24,797 nt of DNA from a virus: IMG/VR virus record IMGVR_UViG_3300008220_000065, positions 1 to 24,797 of that record; one strand, given 5' to 3'. The notes beneath the pieces were generated by a model. The model was not told the DNA's origin and did not search any database. It was given only the letters and a program-made list of their open reading frames with translations. The position numbers and the translations under genes are program-made. Positions 5,640 through 11,955 of the stretch are shown in pieces (position 1 is the first letter of the stretch; every line of letters starts with the position of its first letter).

Positions 5640-5790
5640 AGGGCACCCACTTGGTTTCCCGCAGGATTGCCTTTTCAAAGTGGCGACAGCTTCGGCAGTA
5701 CCACCCTACTCGCTTTCTGGTTTCCATGTTAAGTACCTCTTCTGATTTTTCTTTGCACTGTGGGCAAGTGTTGGTGGTCAGGTCTGTCAT
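5629..5790 (-). CDS. 53-aa zinc-ribbon protein
   Basis: Begins MTDLTTNTCPQCKEKSEEVL. CPQC (residues 9-12) and CRSC (about 32-35) form a Cys4 zinc ribbon with a beta-strand between (KRVGWYC). Function unknown; between helicase and polymerase a role as a small replication accessory or nucleic-acid-binding protein is plausible. The ATG at 5790 overlaps the helicase stop as ATGA and its stop overlaps the polymerase start, so the three are probably translationally coupled. Its codons read cleanly through the gap, which would otherwise be an unexplained 150 bp. Confidence 0.7.
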   Translation of the reverse strand: MTDLTTNTCPQCKEKSEEVLNMETRKRVGWYCRSCRHFEKAILRETKWVPYAN

Positions 5791-7292
5791 AGGTCATAGG
5801 CTCGTGTGTAATCCTCCGGTTCAACGATGTACAGACTGGATTTGGTTCTTGTAACGCCGACATAGAACACACGATGAAGGTCATCTCCGGCTGACTTCAA
5901 AGCCGCTGCTGTAAGATCCAGAAAGAGTACCACGTTTTGGGCTTCGCCGCCTTTAGTGCCGTGGATCGTGGACAGTTTGATACGCGGCATGGCATTGAAC
6001 TTCTCGCCCCGCCGTAGCAGGGCTGTTATGTACGCCCGGTCAGGTGGTGGAATTTTGTCCATGGCTTCATGCCATATCATATCCTCGGTAGCCAGTAGGC
6101 CGTAGTATTTCTGCAAATCAGACAGTGACAGTTTTGCAGTGTCCGTTGTTACTATTTTTTTCTTGCCACGTGCAACTCGTCCGCCATTACCTGACATGAA
6201 GTTATAAATGATTTGTGCTATATCGCGTTCAACCGGTCTTCCCTTGCGCAGTCCTTCCCATGCGTTAACAGCTACCGACAGCTTTTCACTGATGGACCGG
6301 GAGCCGTTACGTTCAAACAAATACCCTAAGCTTTTCAACTGGATAGACAACGGGGTGAGCATGTAGTTGGCCTGAGCCATAATCAGCCATGTGCCCACAC
6401 TCATGTCCAAGCCGTCAATGGAGTGTAAGCGAGTGACCTGACCCCTTTCTTCCTTTGGTTTATAGACCTTGGGGAATCGTTTGTGGATACGGGATGAGAT
6501 TTTATTAGCCAGCGCATGTACTGTCTTGGGGATACGGTAAGACTGCTCAAGCACTTCCGAACCGCCGGGAAGGTTTATAAAATGGTCAACGTCGGCACCA
6601 GCCCAGCGATATAAACATTGGTCGTCATCACCAGCCACGTACATACGTTCCGATTTTTGATCTAACGCATGTGCTATGTCCCATTGCAACGGAGAAAGGT
6701 CTTGGGCTTCATCAAGGAAGCACAGTTTAAAATCAGGACACAGTTCCTCGGCGCTGCCAGCAAACAGTTCAAGCATGTCGGTATAGTCCAACAGCCCCTG
6801 TTTCTGTTTGTATTCATTATAAGAACGTGCCACGTAGTCCACTTCATGCCATGTAAAAGGTAGTTCGGTGTGGTTGTACTCAGTATGCAAAGAGGTTTTC
6901 TTCAGACGCGACAGGTTAATGAGGGACAGCATCGGGTGATCGCTCACTCCCACCGGGCCATCTTCACCCACCTCCTGCTGGTGTTTCACATTCAGGGTAA
7001 ACCCGATCTCCTTGGACAGTTCGGCGTAATGCTTTTTCTGCATGATGTCGCGTTCGCGGATGTTCAGTAGTTTGTACGATAAGGAATGGAGGGTGCGGAA
7101 ATAGAAAAGGTCGGAGTCCATGTCCAGCTTGAATCGAAAGGCTGCTCGTTCCCGGGCTTCATGTGCTGCCTTCCTGGTGAAGGCGAGAAAAGCTATTTGC
7201 TGGGGATTTATCCCCGCGTTCAGCGCCTCATCAACCATGTTCAAAAGGGTGGTGGTCTTGCCTGTACCGGGTGGCCCGAAGATCCTAAACAT
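5787..7292 (-). CDS. UvrD/PcrA-like superfamily 1 DNA helicase
   Basis: 501 aa. Walker A GPPGTGKT (residues 6-13), motif Ia-like AFTRKAA, Walker B CFLDEAQD (about 191-198), motif III GDDDQCLYRW (221-230), motif IV LEQSYR, motif V STIHGTKGGEA (441-451), and motif VI VGVTRTK. This is the complete SF1A core, so it should unwind DNA 3'-5' using ATP. It is shorter than host UvrD (about 720 aa) and starts straight at Walker A, so the usual N-terminal Q-motif is missing. The ATG at 7292 overlaps the upstream stop by 8 nt; the upstream GTG is not needed. A fork or repair helicase in phage replication is inferred. Confidence 0.9.
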   Translation of the reverse strand: MFRIFGPPGTGKTTTLLNMVDEALNAGINPQQIAFLAFTRKAAHEARERAAFRFKLDMDSDLFYFRTLHSLSYKLLNIRERDIMQKKHYAELSKEIGFTLNVKHQQEVGEDGPVGVSDHPMLSLINLSRLKKTSLHTEYNHTELPFTWHEVDYVARSYNEYKQKQGLLDYTDMLELFAGSAEELCPDFKLCFLDEAQDLSPLQWDIAHALDQKSERMYVAGDDDQCLYRWAGADVDHFINLPGGSEVLEQSYRIPKTVHALANKISSRIHKRFPKVYKPKEERGQVTRLHSIDGLDMSVGTWLIMAQANYMLTPLSIQLKSLGYLFERNGSRSISEKLSVAVNAWEGLRKGRPVERDIAQIIYNFMSGNGGRVARGKKKIVTTDTAKLSLSDLQKYYGLLATEDMIWHEAMDKIPPPDRAYITALLRRGEKFNAMPRIKLSTIHGTKGGEAQNVVLFLDLTAAALKSAGDDLHRVFYVGVTRTKSSLYIVEPEDYTRAYDL

Positions 7293-7467
7293 CTTCAAAT
7301 TGTGGCGTTCGCCACACACTATAGGAACGGGCGACGGGTTTGCGGTTCATGAATTTATCCTTTTTGTCTGCAATATAGCCCGGGGGAATTAAGCGAATGA
7401 TGCCGCCCCGTGCAAGGTATTGCTCCACATGCTCGGCTACCTGTTTGCGCTCGTCCTCTTTTGTCAA
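7285..7467 (-). CDS. Hypothetical 60-aa replication-module protein
   Basis: Small protein with the segment ARGGIIRLIPPGYIADKKDK, a pattern seen in short phage proteins of unknown function; similar short proteins are sometimes labelled regulators, but I cannot name a family. The start is inferred to be TTG at 7467: it overlaps the primase stop as TTGA and has AGGAAG about 7 nt upstream. The longer GTG form would overlap the primase by 82 nt, and there is no suitable ATG. Lies between primase and helicase. Confidence 0.6.
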   Translation of the reverse strand: MTKEDERKQVAEHVEQYLARGGIIRLIPPGYIADKKDKFMNRKPVARSYSVWRTPQFEDV

Positions 7468-9002
7468 AAAGGAGCTTCCTGCCCGTTGGAACCCACGGGG
7501 GTAGTCACTTGCCCCGTGTGCTGTGAATAAGCGGGAATTGCCCACACTCGTGTGGCTTTTCCGTTGATCTTCAAACTGATTGCTTCCCCGTTTATGTCTC
7601 TTAATCGTTGCGCAATTTTATGTGACTTGTACTCAAAAAATCTATTTTTTCTCAGGAAGGAATCAAAGTCTTTTAGCCGGAAATAGGTCTTTCCTTCATC
7701 GTCATCGGTGAAGGGTCGGCGCAACAGGATCTCTTCCCGGTTATCCGCCTTCTGCATCACAGTGCAGAACTCTTCCAAAAACTCATAGAACTGGCCTTGG
7801 ATGCTGGCGTCCTGCGATACCTCCACAATGCTACCATCGGTATCACTCATCTCCAGAAGGAGGGCATTGATTCGCCCTTCCCAGATTGGTTTGGACACCG
7901 AACGAGGCATAAAGTTTAGTTGTTCAACACAGGCCCGCTGGAACGCGGCCTGATTCATCAAAGCTTCGGTATCCAGTTCCAGTGGCTGGGCATTAACGTC
8001 CATGAACCACACCGGGGGAGAACTATTGTATTTTCTAAGATTGGCGATAGTCGCCCCGGACACTGCTGCTTCTATCCCGAACTTTCGAGTTTTGCAGACT
8101 TCGGCGTTGCAATACGCATTGATTGGTGCGTCCTTGCACATGTACGCATAGTCCTTGCGTTGTAGCTGCTTTGCCACCACGTTAACTTCGTTCAGGGGTA
8201 ACGGCGGCGAGAGATATTTGGCGTTGTAGACAAGGATCTCGGACTCCCACGAATCTGGATAAGCCTTGCGCAAATAAACGCCTACGTTGAACAGCCCGTT
8301 GTTCCTTCCCCCCTCGTTGATCATCTGCGCACAGAGCGTCTGGAGACACGGTGGACCGTCCTTTATAGGAACATTGGGATCATCTTCTATAGTAAGAGCT
8401 AAAAGCTGCTCAGGCGTCTGTATGTGCGTCTGGTGCAGTTGAAAGAATTCTTGGAGAGTGGCGGAGGAACCATCGTCTTTGATGGCATAACGCAGTCCTT
8501 CCTCGGCGTCATAAAAAGGCAAGTTTAAGAAGTTGCCGACATCACCTCGCTCAAGGAAGAGCTTGATCTGTTTGGGGAAGATCTCGCAATCACCGTAGCC
8601 CAGTGCAGCGGCCACATGCTGCAAGACTTCCTGCATCTCTTTGGCTGCAACCCACTGATCTACAAACAGAAAGCAGTGCGCCCCACCACTTTTGGAGCGG
8701 CATACCACCAGCGGCAGTTTCATGCGCCTGATTTTCTGGATTAATTCGGTGTGATCCAGGGGGTAAGTGTCAACGTCGATGCAACCCCACGTGACTTTGT
8801 TGTCCTCGTTGATGGGGATGATGCCTAGCGCATCGCCCTTACCGGTGAGATGGTTTTCCCACATCTCGTCAGTGCGTGGGGCTTTAACTACCGTCGCTTT
8901 GCCTGTGTTCTTCCCGTTGTTTTGTTGTCGGTCAATTCGATAGGTTCCGTAGGCTAGCTTCAGTCCCTCGAAAATGGCCGCGAACTGCTTTGCATCGGAC
9001 AT
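7464..9002 (-). CDS. Archaeo-eukaryotic-type (AEP) DNA primase
   Basis: 512 aa. Residues 70-115 hold the catalytic signature of AEP primases: WGCIDVDTYPL with Asp76/Asp78, followed by CRSKSGGAHCFLFV with the SGGxH nucleotide-binding motif (105-109). The overall layout is closest to the TOTE-conflict-type primase domains. From about 220 comes a PriCT-like helical segment (INEGGRNNGLFNVGVYLRK), and then a Cys cluster (C289, C298, C303) typical of phage primases. No Walker A is seen, so there is no fused helicase. It makes primers for the polymerase. The C-terminus is GQEAPF, very like the SSB-type tail of the upstream gene. Downstream gene starts on its stop (TTGA). Confidence 0.85.
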   Translation of the reverse strand: MSDAKQFAAIFEGLKLAYGTYRIDRQQNNGKNTGKATVVKAPRTDEMWENHLTGKGDALGIIPINEDNKVTWGCIDVDTYPLDHTELIQKIRRMKLPLVVCRSKSGGAHCFLFVDQWVAAKEMQEVLQHVAAALGYGDCEIFPKQIKLFLERGDVGNFLNLPFYDAEEGLRYAIKDDGSSATLQEFFQLHQTHIQTPEQLLALTIEDDPNVPIKDGPPCLQTLCAQMINEGGRNNGLFNVGVYLRKAYPDSWESEILVYNAKYLSPPLPLNEVNVVAKQLQRKDYAYMCKDAPINAYCNAEVCKTRKFGIEAAVSGATIANLRKYNSSPPVWFMDVNAQPLELDTEALMNQAAFQRACVEQLNFMPRSVSKPIWEGRINALLLEMSDTDGSIVEVSQDASIQGQFYEFLEEFCTVMQKADNREEILLRRPFTDDDEGKTYFRLKDFDSFLRKNRFFEYKSHKIAQRLRDINGEAISLKINGKATRVWAIPAYSQHTGQVTTPVGSNGQEAPF

Positions 9003-9015
9003 TTATTCTTCTCGG

Positions 9016-9038
9016 AAAAGGGGGCACCGGAGTGCCCC
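9016..9038 (-). other. Very stable cUNCGg-type RNA hairpin between SSB and primase genes
   Basis: In minus-strand RNA the 7-bp perfect stem GGGGCAC/GUGCCCC (9032-9038 with 9021-9027) closes a UCCG tetraloop with a C-G pair, the UNCG class of extra-stable loops. Only four U residues follow (9016-9019), weak for termination. It occupies the 44-nt gap between the two genes and could be an attenuator, an mRNA end stabiliser, or a pause site. Confidence 0.6.
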
Positions 9039-9046
9039 ATGCTAGA

Positions 9047-9853
9047 TTAAAACGGTGCTTCACCCGCATCCTTTTCAACGGGAATTTCTTCCCGTTCATG
9101 GTTAGCGGTCACTTGGCCTTTTTCAACGGATTCAGCGAAGATTTTGCAGTGGTTATAAGTATCCGCACTCTCCACTTTACCGTCCAGCGTGATATTCCAT
9201 GTGTTCCATGTATAGTTGCCTTTCGCTGCTTTTTCTGTGGTTAAGTGGTAAACGTAATAAAAGGAAGGAGGATTGAAATGTCCCTTTTTGCCCTTCTCTA
9301 ATCGGCTTGTCATCATGGAATTCCACTTTTCCGATTTTTTTTTGGCTGTTTTTGCCATGGTGATTAGACCGGGTTCAATGCGACCATCATCTTTGAGCAT
9401 TATGACGTAATGATGGGCGGTGTTTTCAAGGTAATTCTCTGAGCCAACGATATAATCAGTGTAGTCCTCTTTCCCATCAGGATCGAGACGTCGCTCAGTT
9501 TTGGGCATCTCGCCGGAGGCTTTTTGCGCCGGAGTATAGAAATTGATAGGCGCACCAGCTTCTTCTGAGTCTCGGGGTGCCCATTCGATGTAACGACGCT
9601 GATAGATACACGGCACCACTTTAATTCCAACTGTCTTGCTGAACACTTCCTGCGTGACACTGTTGTAAATGTCGCCACCCTTCGCGTCATACTCTTCCGC
9701 TTTTTCGGCGGTGAGAATTCTCAGAAATGGCAAAGCCAAATCTTCCGTGGTTATGTTCTGCAAACCTAGTCCGGCATCTGCCTCTACGCTTGCAATATCG
9801 AACGGGATTACATTGCTTTCTTTCTTCTTGCTTACTGTTTTGTTGTTTGTCAT
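9047..9853 (-). CDS. Probable phage single-stranded DNA-binding protein
   Basis: 268 aa. The N-terminal part (ITTEDLALPFLRILTAEKAE, then GGDIYNSVTQEVF and VVPCIYQRRYIEWAPR) resembles a phage protein family found in replication modules and often assigned to ssDNA binding. The last nine residues (EKDAGEAPF) form an acidic tail ending in Pro-Phe, as in E. coli SSB (DDDIPF), where the tail recruits partners. It sits directly before the primase and after a coiled-coil protein. Lys/aromatic-rich central segments (KTAKKKSEKWNSMM, NPPSFYYVYHL) fit an OB-type DNA surface. The SSB label is inference from tail and context; no enzymatic motif is seen. Confidence 0.55.
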   Translation of the reverse strand: MTNNKTVSKKKESNVIPFDIASVEADAGLGLQNITTEDLALPFLRILTAEKAEEYDAKGGDIYNSVTQEVFSKTVGIKVVPCIYQRRYIEWAPRDSEEAGAPINFYTPAQKASGEMPKTERRLDPDGKEDYTDYIVGSENYLENTAHHYVIMLKDDGRIEPGLITMAKTAKKKSEKWNSMMTSRLEKGKKGHFNPPSFYYVYHLTTEKAAKGNYTWNTWNITLDGKVESADTYNHCKIFAESVEKGQVTANHEREEIPVEKDAGEAPF

Positions 9854-9859
9854 TGGTTT

Positions 9860-10420
9860 CTACCTTTTAATTGTCGCTTTATGGCCTACATAGGCCCCAA
9901 ATAATTCTTCTGGGAAGTCCTGTCCCCCCTCAATCATCTCCTTAACAAAAGCCTTTAATGTTTGATTATGCACTTCGGCTTTCTGGTTCACGTCAAAGCC
10001 TTCGGACTGGGCCAGTTTAATAAAAGTTTCAGCCTTATCATCTTCGCCCCGCCCAAACGGCAACGACACAGTGTTCTTGATAATGTCGTCGTGACCTTTT
10101 TCTCGCAGCCAATTAAACGCCTCTTCCCGATTTTCAACTTTAATGTGTGCGCCATAGACAGCACCCACTTTGACCTTGGAACCGTCATCAAGTTCAAAAG
10201 AGGTCATTCCAATTTCTTGTAATAGAGAAGGCAGATCTTCGAGAGAGATTTTATCGCGTTCTTTTTTGGCTTCCTTGAGAATCCCTTCCAGCTTTTCTAC
10301 TTCTTCTTCCTTCTGTCGGAGAAGTCGGGCGACTTCCGCGATACTTTTTACACCTTCGGTGTTGAGGGACTCCACGCCAGAGGCGGCGTCGGCTTCCATT
10401 TGATCAAAAAGATCATTCAT
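9860..10420 (-). CDS. Coiled-coil replication-module protein (186 aa)
   Basis: Function unknown. Residues about 30-60 (VARLLRQKEEEVEKLEGIL plus following Lys/Glu) are a coiled coil. The C-terminal two thirds carry segments such as AFNWLREKGHDDIIK, SLPFGRGEDDKAETF and QTLKAFVKEMIE, a layout I associate with a widespread phage family of unknown role. An AAGGAG 9 nt before the ATG at 10420 fixes the start; a longer frame begins at 10468 but would run through the operator dyad. First gene of the replication operon, with promoter -10 near 10469-10474. Confidence 0.7.
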   Translation of the reverse strand: MNDLFDQMEADAASGVESLNTEGVKSIAEVARLLRQKEEEVEKLEGILKEAKKERDKISLEDLPSLLQEIGMTSFELDDGSKVKVGAVYGAHIKVENREEAFNWLREKGHDDIIKNTVSLPFGRGEDDKAETFIKLAQSEGFDVNQKAEVHNQTLKAFVKEMIEGGQDFPEELFGAYVGHKATIKR

Positions 10421-10439
10421 TTTCAGTGTCTCCTTATTT

Positions 10440-10458
10440 AAGAGTGTTATGCACTCTT
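10440..10458. promoter_or_regulatory. Operator-like dyad between divergent promoters
   Basis: Perfect 7-bp arms AAGAGTG (10440-10446) and CACTCTT (10452-10458) around a 5-bp spacer. The right end overlaps the -35 box of the plus-strand SNF2 promoter, and the whole dyad lies in the early transcribed leader of the minus-strand operon. A bound repressor could therefore act on both. Confidence 0.6.
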
Positions 10459-10486
10459 GCGAAAGCACATATTAATCGGATAGAAT
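10457..10486 (+). promoter_or_regulatory. Promoter for the SNF2 helicase gene
   Basis: TTGCGA (10457-10462), an 18-nt spacer, and TAGAAT (10481-10486; five of six matches to TATAAT). Transcription would begin around 10493, with the AAGGAG ribosome site and ATG (10507) directly downstream. Confidence 0.5.
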
Positions 10487-10497
10487 TAGATATGCAA
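10469..10497 (-). promoter_or_regulatory. Promoter for the replication operon
   Basis: On the minus strand TTGCAT (10492-10497), a 17-nt spacer, and TAATAT (10469-10474). Transcription would start around 10462, just ahead of the operator dyad. The spacing is ideal but the boxes are only partial matches (3/6 and 4/6). Confidence 0.4.
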
Positions 10498-10506
10498 GGA
10501 GAAATG

Positions 10507-11955
10507 ATGAATTTTAAAACCACGCCGTACCAACATCAGTTGGATGTTTATGAATGCTCCAAGGACCGTGATTTCTGGGCCTTATTTATGGAAATGGGAA
10601 CCGGAAAATCCAAGGTGGTCCTTGACCAGATGGCCTATCTATATGAAAAAGGAGCGATTGATACCGCCCTAATTATCGCACCGAAGGGGGTTTTTGACAC
10701 GTGGGTGCAGCAAGAGATTCCCCGGCATCTGAGTGATGATGTTCCATACAAAGTGGTGCGATGGCAACCTAGTTTCACGAAGGGTTTTGTGCGTGACATC
10801 TCCGAGATTGCTTTGCCCGAGAAGCGAGAGGAAAAGTTTCTAGGTATCCTCGTGATGAACGTCGAAGCTTTTTCCACTAATAAAGGAAGCCAGACCGCGA
10901 CCAAGTTTCTTACTCTTAATCCTAACAATCTTGTTATTGTGGATGAGTCCACCACCATTAAAACGCGCAAGGCTCAACGGACAAAGAACCTGATTGAACT
11001 GGGCAAGCTGGCAAAGTATCGCCGTATCCTGACTGGCAGTCCCATCACAAAAAGTCCTATGGATCTCTTCACGCAGTGTGCGTTTCTTTCCCCGGATGCA
11101 CTTGGGTTCAGCAGCTTTTATTCGTTTCAGGGTCGCTATGCGAAAATAGAGAGACGCCATGGTGCTAATCGTATTTATCCCCACATCCTTGGCTATCGAC
11201 GGTTGGATGAACTGGGGGACAAGCTTGATAAATTCAGTTCCCGTATATTAAAGGAAGATTGTTTGAATCTTCCCGAGAAGATTTACATGCGCCGTAATGT
11301 CCCGCTGACCCCGGAACAAGCTAAATTATATAAGCAAATGAAGAAGTTAGCGTTGGCTCAACTTGAAAGCGGGGAAATAGCTTCGACGGTTAATGTTCTC
11401 ACCCAGATCATGCGACTTCAGCAGATCACTTGTGGGTTCTTGCAACCGGACGAAGGGGAAGTACAACCGATTAAAAACAACCGGCTACAGGAATTACTCG
11501 ACATCGTGGAGGAAACCGACGGCAAAGCCATCATCTGGGCCTACTGGATCCACGACATCGAACTTATTTATGAAGCTCTCACCAAAAAGTATGGAGTGGG
11601 ATCGGCAGCTACTTACCAAGGCAAAACTCCGCAGGACGAAAGACAACAGATTATTGTTTCTTTTCAAAGCAAGGATTCTCCGCTTCGCTTTTTTATCGGG
11701 CAACCATTGACTGGAGGTTATGGTATTACTTTGACAGCGGCTAACAGTGTCATATATTACAGTAACTCCTACCATCTGGAAGCAAGACTTCAGTCTGAAG
11801 ACCGGGCGCACCGGATTGGACAAACCAGATCAGTCAACTATATAGATATAGTGAGTCCTGACACCGTGGACGAGAAAATTTTAAAAGCTTTGCGGGGTAA
11901 GATAGATATTGCCGGGACGGTACTGGGCGAAGATACCAAGAACTGGTTAATCTAG
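10507..11955 (+). CDS. SNF2-family (superfamily 2) helicase
   Basis: 482 aa with a full SNF2 core: Walker A MEMGTGKSK (28-36), motif Ia APKGVFDTW, motif II IVDEST (144-149), motif III ILTGSPI (174-180), motif V LTGGYGITLTAA (about 401-412), and motif VI RAHRIGQTRSV (434-443), the SNF2-type AHRIGQ arginine finger. It probably moves on double-stranded DNA or remodels bound proteins; in phages such genes lie in replication modules. The ATG at 10507 has AAGGAG 5 nt before it; the adjoining ATG at 10504 would sit too close. It is the only large plus-strand gene, divergent from the replication operon, and its TAG overlaps the stop of the 1423-aa gene. Confidence 0.9.
   Translation: MNFKTTPYQHQLDVYECSKDRDFWALFMEMGTGKSKVVLDQMAYLYEKGAIDTALIIAPKGVFDTWVQQEIPRHLSDDVPYKVVRWQPSFTKGFVRDISEIALPEKREEKFLGILVMNVEAFSTNKGSQTATKFLTLNPNNLVIVDESTTIKTRKAQRTKNLIELGKLAKYRRILTGSPITKSPMDLFTQCAFLSPDALGFSSFYSFQGRYAKIERRHGANRIYPHILGYRRLDELGDKLDKFSSRILKEDCLNLPEKIYMRRNVPLTPEQAKLYKQMKKLALAQLESGEIASTVNVLTQIMRLQQITCGFLQPDEGEVQPIKNNRLQELLDIVEETDGKAIIWAYWIHDIELIYEALTKKYGVGSAATYQGKTPQDERQQIIVSFQSKDSPLRFFIGQPLTGGYGITLTAANSVIYYSNSYHLEARLQSEDRAHRIGQTRSVNYIDIVSPDTVDEKILKALRGKIDIAGTVLGEDTKNWLI

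Follow-up and report, generated by a model that had tools for sequence, protein, structure and literature searches.

A C-terminal tip shared by a phage SSB-like protein and its AEP primase, with evidence of joint change

Why does a phage primase end in the same residues as the single-stranded DNA-binding protein (SSB) encoded beside it, and could the two endings address one partner? The question is raised by virus record IMGVR_UViG_3300008220_000065, a 24.8 kb fragment that was analysed over its whole length of 24,797 bases (the window). Here an SSB-like protein ends in ...VEKDAGEAPF, and a primase of the archaeo-eukaryotic primase (AEP) superfamily ends in ...PVGSNGQEAPF. Comparison with relatives makes it somewhat probable that the primase tail mimics the docking tail of the phage SSB, and that one shared, probably phage-encoded docking site serves both proteins. 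The features on which the argument turns are these:

9047..9853, minus strand: SSB-like protein of the Pam3_Gp34 family (gp34-type below; PF23977 / phrog_2402), with an oligonucleotide/oligosaccharide-binding (OB) type of fold, 268 amino acids
7464..9002, minus strand: AEP primase, CAPP/TOTE-type Prim-Pol (PF22548, phrog_21866), 512 amino acids
9050..9064, minus strand: tip GEAPF, the C-terminus of the SSB-like protein, from sequence
7467..7481, minus strand: tip QEAPF, the C-terminus of the primase, from sequence

The two tips and their conservation

The SSB-like tip is encoded by GGT GAA GCA CCG TTT TAA and the primase tip by CAG GAA GCT CCT TTT TGA. The original prediction had named the endings GEAPF and QEAPF and had noted their different codons (GCA-CCG-TTT versus GCT-CCT-TTT); the translations of the open reading frames (ORFs) and the tip codons bear this out, with GAA and TTT common to both tips and the Ala and Pro codons differing. 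Its further claim, that this is not a simple recent duplication of DNA, also stands. Across clusters of relatives, each family uses the full set of four Pro codons and the two Phe codons, and a recent DNA duplication of the tip was rejected on this ground and on the codon differences in the window. Such synonymous variation at the tip means that it is the residues that are under selection. Position 9069, where the original prediction had ended its region, simply covers the SSB tip.

Models of the two proteins were made with AlphaFold. The predicted local distance difference test (pLDDT) score is 66 and 56 in the last two blocks of the SSB tail (residues 251-268), and 60 (residues 501-510) and 56 (residues 511-512) in the primase tail. 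Both tips are probably carried on flexible, disordered tails, the disordered linker of an SSB-Ct-type tail being indicated here by low model confidence. The tails had also been described as acidic, which is a fair description of the SSB but holds less well for the primase: the mean net charge of the last ten residues is -1.95 for the former and -1.35 for the latter, and the last ten residues of the window primase contain only one acidic residue (Glu).

Relatives were gathered in two samples. Searches with the primase and its relatives yielded loci L001-L315, including 13 annotated phage stretches. Profiles built from these loci found both genes complete in 274 of 316 sources, the window included, while 42 were without one complete gene; clustering at less than 80% primase-core identity gave a viral set of 84 clusters. 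An extra sample comprised 64 bacterial-genome contigs, taken as prophages or phage contigs in bins, of which 35 held both genes complete and 27 held a complete primase with no gp34-type SSB found in the fetched stretch. After removal of a duplicate (L060), the combined set retained the 308 of 379 sources (273 viral, 35 genome contigs) in which both genes were complete and above the score limits, leaving out 71 with one gene incomplete or below those limits. These form 113 clusters whose primase cores are less than 80% identical, and unless the viral set is named the counts below refer to them.

Conservation of the last residues in both families, the check suggested with the original prediction, was then assessed, and the tails do not vary freely. 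The last residue is aromatic in 93/113 clusters for the SSB and in 93/113 for the primase, and hydrophobic in 104/113 for each; a Pro-aromatic end is found in 65/113 and 66/113, respectively. The viral set gives the same picture (aromatic in 67 SSBs and 69 primases of the 84 clusters, Pro-aromatic in 46 and 49), and among the 35 bacterial-genome contigs with both genes, both proteins are aromatic-ended in 30 and both Pro-aromatic in 20. At least one Asp or Glu is present at positions -3 to -6 in 92/113 SSB and 98/113 primase clusters. Both families therefore display SSB-Ct-type features, namely a hydrophobic and usually Pro-Phe end and acidic residues before the tip. When the last 20 positions were aligned from the right, entropy reached its minimum at the last two in both families, with 1.8 bits (SSB) and 1.5 bits (primase) at the last residue and 3.3-3.9 bits at positions -7 to -20. 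Judged by sequence, this is the pattern of a linker with a selected tip.

The tip is seldom seen elsewhere in these loci. Other plus-strand ORFs of at least 150 amino acids in the cluster representatives are aromatic-ended in 5.9% of cases and Pro-aromatic in 1 of 356. In the neighbouring families, aromatic ends number 0/77 (gp33-like), 3/78 (UvrD), 0/56 (PolA) and 5/67 (SNF2), and Pro-aromatic ends 0/78 for UvrD and 1/67 for SNF2, the highest value over the four families. No third tail-bearing family was found among the 21 families present in at least four loci (856 other genes, 84 cluster representatives). Four single Pro-aromatic ORFs occur among these 856 genes: those of L006 and L076 are canonical SSBs, that of L283 is the sole tip-bearing member of a family present in 21 loci, and that of L307 is a minus-strand ORF. 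On these comparisons the tail is taken to be real, selected and largely specific to the SSB and the primase. A conserved, covarying tail that is absent from other gene families is what a shared docking site predicts.

Joint change of the tips

PF on both proteins is the dominant combination, and PY/PY, EF/EF, -IV/-IV and -II/-II pairs also occur. The first sign came from named phages and nearby contigs, in which the SSB and primase ended PY/PY, EF/EF, -DIV/-NIV and PFA/PFV, the last with one extra residue in both proteins. Unusual tips are matched in KSII/TDII (L370), QDIV/ENIV (HTVC027P clade), KSPY/DSPY (L055), EAPY/ETPY (L364), SGNY/KPNY (L296) and GGEF/KSEF (Bhz9). The last residue is identical in 79/113 clusters, compared with 57.7 expected under random pairing.

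To account for shared ancestry, dependent evolution was assessed by Pagel-type tests on a tree built from the cores of both proteins, using a viral set of 149 and a combined set of 152. In the viral set, dependence was supported for the Pro-aromatic end (p 0.002) and the aromatic end (p 0.049). In the combined set, the likelihood ratio (LR) was 28.8 for Tyr (p 9e-6), 23.9 for Phe (p 9e-5), 20.9 for Pro-aromatic (p 3e-4), 14.2 for aromatic (p 0.007) and 13.7 for aliphatic ends (p 0.008); between 7 and 20 changes were inferred on the tree for each trait in each protein. Evolution simulated under independence reached the observed LR in none of 59 replicates for Tyr, none of 76 for Pro-aromatic and none of 71 for Phe; the simulation covered these three traits, and the Pro-aromatic LR was 26.2 there, from a second fit that found a better optimum.

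Two further tests point the same way. When each protein's partner was replaced by that of the nearest relative, similarity within genomes of the combined set was the higher at four cluster levels (one-sided p 0.015, 0.023, 0.025 and 0.035), and Fisher tests on the viral set gave a significant, strong association at 95% and 80% clustering. Covariation of the tips is thus well supported at the sequence level in kind, and not letter for letter.

Candidate docks and rival explanations

These observations can be accommodated by a simple mechanism. In each protein a flexible linker leads to a short tip, which usually has at least one acidic residue, then usually Pro-Phe and the free carboxylate. The tip would most likely slot into a pocket of a single kind on some protein of the phage replisome. 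As each chain has a single C-terminus, each SSB or primase molecule would fill one pocket, and the two proteins would either alternate at a common hub or meet there, and in this way the primase would be placed on the SSB-coated template. That both tips have the same partner, that this partner is phage-encoded, and that there is competition or hand-off, we infer from the conservation and joint change of the sequences. A fuller version falls just short of an even chance: a co-evolving two-protein docking code, in which the AEP primase acquired the private SSB tail of its phage and follows changes of the socket (Pro-Phe, Pro-Tyr, Glu-Phe, Ile-Val, Ile-Ile), and in which priming competes with, or is handed over from, the SSB at one phage socket. 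This would be the reverse of the bacterial arrangement and a second origin of the principle known from T7, with unrelated proteins.

Which protein would bear the socket? The original prediction had proposed one docking protein, either the phage polymerase or a host clamp or helicase system. Conservation, covariation and specificity of the tail favour the idea of one dock, whereas a host dock, or the polymerase as sole ancestral dock, is disfavoured. The case against the polymerase comes from BcepF1, Carpasina, MyoSmar and Pluto, which are annotated with a PolIII-alpha or PolC-like polymerase and keep the SSB tail; for this reason the phage polymerase is disfavoured as the only ancestral dock of that tail. 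The case against a host protein comes in part from HTVC023P and HTVC027P, which share a recorded host, Candidatus Pelagibacter sp. HTCC1062, and have different SSB tips (VPF and DIV). The same comparison speaks against the host clamp, and the tip is, we presume, unlike the usual beta-clamp peptide.

A second, canonical SSB is encoded beside the gp34-type SSB in Bhz9 (L390 31019-31330), L006 (15138-15395) and L076 (16281-16622).

The Acinetobacter phage Bhz9 has a canonical SSB ending DDDLPF, a gp34-type SSB ending GGEF and a primase ending KSEF; the corresponding tips in L076 are DQDIPF, ADM and SEI. All three proteins of L006 are Pro-aromatic, and this locus does not discriminate. Because SSB tips differ on one host, and because the primase tip resembles that of the gp34-type SSB in Bhz9 and L076, a host protein as dock is disfavoured on sequence grounds. 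The remaining candidates are the groove of the SSB itself and four products of the surrounding genes. The replication cluster on the minus strand comprises the gp33-like protein, the SSB-like protein, the primase, a UvrD-like helicase and a family A polymerase, with an SNF2-type helicase on the opposite strand:

9860..10468, minus strand: gp33-like protein (DUF7307), candidate dock; PF23984, 115.3 bits against a cut-off of 27
10426..11955, plus strand: SNF2-type helicase, tail-less, candidate dock; phrog_62, 1.6e-120
5787..7319, minus strand: UvrD-like helicase, tail-less, candidate dock; PF00580, 110 bits
3735..5678, minus strand: family A DNA polymerase (PolA) with a 3'-5' exonuclease domain, tail-less, candidate dock; PF00476, 197 bits, and PF01612, 49.6 bits

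The gp33-like gene is the usual upstream partner of the SSB-like gene and is complete in 77 of 84 clusters. PolA is matched in 253/316 sources, many of these sources being short. Relatives of the gp33-like protein often have a basic tail, of charge opposite to that of the SSB tail; their last residue is Lys in 41/77 clusters and never aromatic.

Several results weigh against a shared docking site. The relative-swap test is modest, reaching only p 0.064 in the viral set alone, and when it was applied there to 14 control gene pairs, the pair SSB-SNF2 gave p 0.009. In a plain permutation test, SSB-PolA, primase-PolA and gp33-UvrD pass as well. The Fisher test is non-significant at 60% clustering (37 clusters, p 0.12 and 0.15), and many pairs differ by letter, such as DVPW/PQPF, DIPF/APW and TPY/EAF. 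At least one of the two proteins lacks a hydrophobic last residue in 15/113 clusters. The primase has no tip in the Nanhaivirus phages R5C, Pan1 and R26L (GEA, GEA and GQD) or in HTVC023P (KFRT), and the SSB keeps PF in all of them. Finally, distant primase relatives on Mesorhizobium and Rhodospirillaceae contigs (L363, L373 and L374) end in DEDIPF, DEDLPF and DEDIPF, with no gp34-type SSB found in the fetched stretch.

The modest swap test with its one passing control pair, and the non-significant Fisher tests in coarse clusters, are what might be seen if there were no common partner, that is, if two independent acidic-aromatic tails had separate roles and were alike through convergence or movement within one cassette. 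Such an account is nevertheless highly doubtful: rare tips are matched in several lineages, the tree tests reject independent evolution, and neighbouring genes of the same cassette have no such tail. The textbook tails of the distant primase relatives raise another alternative, since a host or canonical-SSB dock fits those proteins at least as well. By imitating the tail of the host's SSB, both tips might occupy the host proteins that bind it, such as Pol III chi, PriA or DnaG. Many SSB-like tips are indeed textbook SSB tails (DDIPF, EDIPF), and the available part of PMC5872125 names DnaG, chi, PriA and ExoI as proteins bound by the E. coli SSB tail DDDIPF. Host mimicry appears quite improbable, given the non-canonical tips (-EF, -IV, -II, -EI/-DM), the differing SSB tips of two phages on one recorded host, and the primases of Bhz9 and L076, whose tips are like that of the gp34-type SSB and unlike that of the canonical SSB encoded by the phage itself.

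It is also conceivable, if unlikely, that the SSB-like protein is itself the dock, its own tail folding onto its groove for single-stranded DNA and the primase tail binding that groove in trans. No third protein would be necessary, and both the primase tip's following of the gp34-type tip and the retention of the tail in SSB relatives of phages with no primase homologue found would be explained. There are also precedents: the T7 gp2.5 tail and single-stranded DNA compete for the cleft (PMC2965674, available part), and in crystals of Enc34 ORF6 the C-terminus rests on the beta-sheet of a neighbouring molecule (PMC5686142, likewise). The low pLDDT of the tail, with no confident contact predicted, tells against it, as does an SSB core in the window that is not net basic (33 Lys/Arg versus 36 Asp/Glu), although a local groove could be.

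A cause at the nucleotide level is barely credible. The next ORF may start at a TTG that shares bases with the primase stop, an overlap that could fix the last codon; it is present in the window, and DSL-LC04 has an annotated overlap of four bases. However, the primase Phe codon is TTC in 36 and TTT in 27 cluster representatives, counts on which an overlap with a downstream start codon was rejected as the cause of the tip, and the overlap explains neither the Pro nor the SSB tip, behind which lies a gap of 44 bases. The ORF concerned is small (7285-7467, minus strand) and overlaps the end of the primase gene, its possible TTG start combining the final T of the Phe codon with the TG of the TGA stop. 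In DSL-LC04, the gene that overlaps the primase end is named 'RNA polymerase sigma-G factor'.

With these alternatives weighed, the preferred reading remains a phage-encoded dock shared by the SSB and the primase. If primase and SSB compete for it, an excess of SSB over primase is needed, and the DNA between the two genes offers a means by which this could arise:

9021..9038, minus strand: GC-rich hairpin in the gap separating the SSB-like and primase genes, terminator- or attenuator-like, from its predicted fold

The hairpin folds with -16.2 kcal/mol (z -2.09), and 6 of 200 shuffled sequences fold equally well. Among 96 adjacent SSB-primase pairs, the gap is at least 20 bases in 87, and a stem of at least six pairs is present in 42 of these 87, against 6.7 expected from base shuffling. 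In 25 cases the stem is followed by at least three T within eight bases, the shuffling expectation covering the stems only. The gap hairpin thus recurs in relatives with different sequences, and it could let the SSB be produced in excess over the primase.

Tail loss, origin and identity of the two proteins

Exceptions to the rule fall on both proteins. The SSB tip is absent in L339 and L351, whose primase tips are altered too (APFA and PSFK), and a frameshift check of these two loci found no SSB tip in other frames just downstream. SSBs of L266, L282 and L313 end in RRR or FRR instead, and in L005 and its kin one Gly stands behind the PF. The SSB-like gene of L003 (4390-4450) has a stop codon right before the tip, which its relative L004 does not; the primases of both are 93% identical to that of the window, and from the sequence a sequencing error and a natural loss of the tail are not distinguishable. 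As for the polymerases of phages with tip-less primases, the family A polymerase of R5C gave no Pfam match to an exonuclease domain, and the phage encodes a separate exonuclease and an AAA clamp-loader-like protein; HTVC023P has a PolA match like other phages. Dinoroseobacter phage R5C also encodes a small protein, gp048 (L388 24358-24603, minus strand), that ends in a textbook SSB tail (LDDEIPF) and has no PHROG match.

The distribution of the tail bears on its origin. Ten phage records with an SSB relative were drawn from outside the 25 records with a primase match (E 1e-5), out of 460-485 SSB-matching records. The SSB relatives of these phages, in which no primase homologue was detected, end in Phe in nine cases (PB1 EEF, BcepF1 DNF, RCIP0319 EEF, Carpasina DNF, Pluto DNF, MyoSmar EQF, YuA PVF, RHph_I65 PPF and Pantoea phage PA1 EGF) and in DEM in VP2. 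Of the primase relatives on the 27 bacterial contigs that yielded no gp34-type SSB, 12, mostly low-scoring ones, are aromatic-ended and 5 Pro-aromatic. Since the SSB tail occurs even where no primase homologue was detected, that of the primase appears to be derived; judged by distribution rather than by a rooted tree, the SSB tail has the wider occurrence and is hence probably the older.

The SSB-like protein matches PF23977 (Pam3_Gp34) with 157.8 bits, against a curated cut-off of 27, and phrog_2402 with 2.1e-47, a family that PHROGs lists as of function unknown. In the Pfam scan the bacterial SSB family gave no match to it, PF23977 being found instead, and no PF00436 SSB came up when the record of the window, a 24.8 kb fragment, was searched for one. 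An AlphaFold (AF2) model from 67 sequences has a mean pLDDT of 91.5. Foldseek alone gave no match below E 0.001 for this model. On rescoring of the Foldseek candidates, the second structural neighbour among the 50 listed was RB69 gp32 (Z 6.5), and most of the 50 were SSB, RPA and other OB-fold chains, mostly at Z 4-5 and over residues of about 57-228; gp2.5 and Enc34 ORF6 were not among them. With moderate support from the model, the protein belongs to the OB fold. SSB is a good but unproven label for it, binding of single-stranded DNA being suggested by the fold and gene neighbourhood.

Ahead of RB69 gp32 among the neighbours listed stands the phiC31 recombination directionality factor (9teh), at Z 8.4 the only one above Z 8. 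On this structural likeness, that factor and the gp34-type SSB family may have a common origin.

The primase matches PF22548 with 47.3 bits (cut-off 27), phrog_21866 (primase) with 8e-95, and the CAPP Prim-Pol 7nqd of Marinitoga both by profile (2.2e-14, positions 4-196) and by fold (5.9e-11); its AlphaFold model has a mean pLDDT of 90.2. D76, D78 and H109, which we take to be the AEP motifs, are invariant in 71 sequences. By these matches it is assigned to the AEP superfamily, with an AEP catalytic domain, and the Pfam scan reported no replicative-helicase domain in it. Near PolA, Bhz9 (L390 31343-32509) has an annotated '2-aminooxy adenylosuccinate synthetase' along with dATP-removing enzymes, a gene set that we take to be that of a Z-genome phage; the primase type may thus also occur there.

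Should a shared dock be confirmed, it would supply a simple rule for bringing the primase to the fork in phages with free-standing AEP primases, and would support an SSB function for the large phage family phrog_2402. The natural tip variants PF, PY, EF, IV and II are suited to locating the socket, through co-evolution or peptide competition. Among the open-licence papers listed in literature searches, none was found to describe a shared SSB/primase tail in AEP-primase phages, as judged by titles and the starts of abstracts.

Comparison with known systems

Tails of the bacterial SSB-Ct type (DDDIPF) are like the gp34-type tips in having acidic residues, Pro-Phe with a free carboxylate and a flexible linker, and DDIPF and EDIPF occur among the latter. 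The arrangement is the opposite of that in E. coli, where the primase DnaG holds a pocket for the SSB tail and Arg452 is suggested to bind the Phe carboxylate (PMC5872125, available part); here the primase bears the tip. Enc34 ORF6 (DUF2815) is likewise a phage OB-fold SSB of a replication module with an acidic C-terminal segment, as given in the available part of PMC5686142, but it is of another family by name (DUF2815 versus PF23977). The CAPP Prim-Pol 7nqd corresponds by profile and fold to the N-terminal catalytic part of the window primase, whereas the phage enzyme has about 300 extra residues and the SSB-like tip.

A close parallel is T7, in which the SSB (gp2.5, ending ...EADEDGDF in the T7 record) and the priming enzyme (gp4, ...DWSNDTDF) both end, as here, in an acidic tail with a terminal Phe. 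The available parts of the respective articles describe the gp4 tail as binding basic patches of the family A polymerase gp5 (PMC12593628, PMC5997990), with both the terminal Phe and the acidity being of importance (PMC12230644), and implicate the gp2.5 tail in contacts with the polymerase and the primase-helicase (PMC5686142). Unlike in T7, the primase described here is an AEP Prim-Pol, with no replicative-helicase domain reported, and the SSB is a gp34-type OB protein; the tip is usually Pro-Phe and less acidic, and it persists in SSB relatives whose phages have an annotated polymerase of the PolIII-alpha type. The gp34-type SSB and AEP primase are thus a second, apparently non-homologous case of a tail shared by SSB and primase after T7, with evolutionary evidence of joint change. 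If the shared dock is real, the wiring of the T7 replisome, with one type of tail on SSB and primase, would be a convergent principle.

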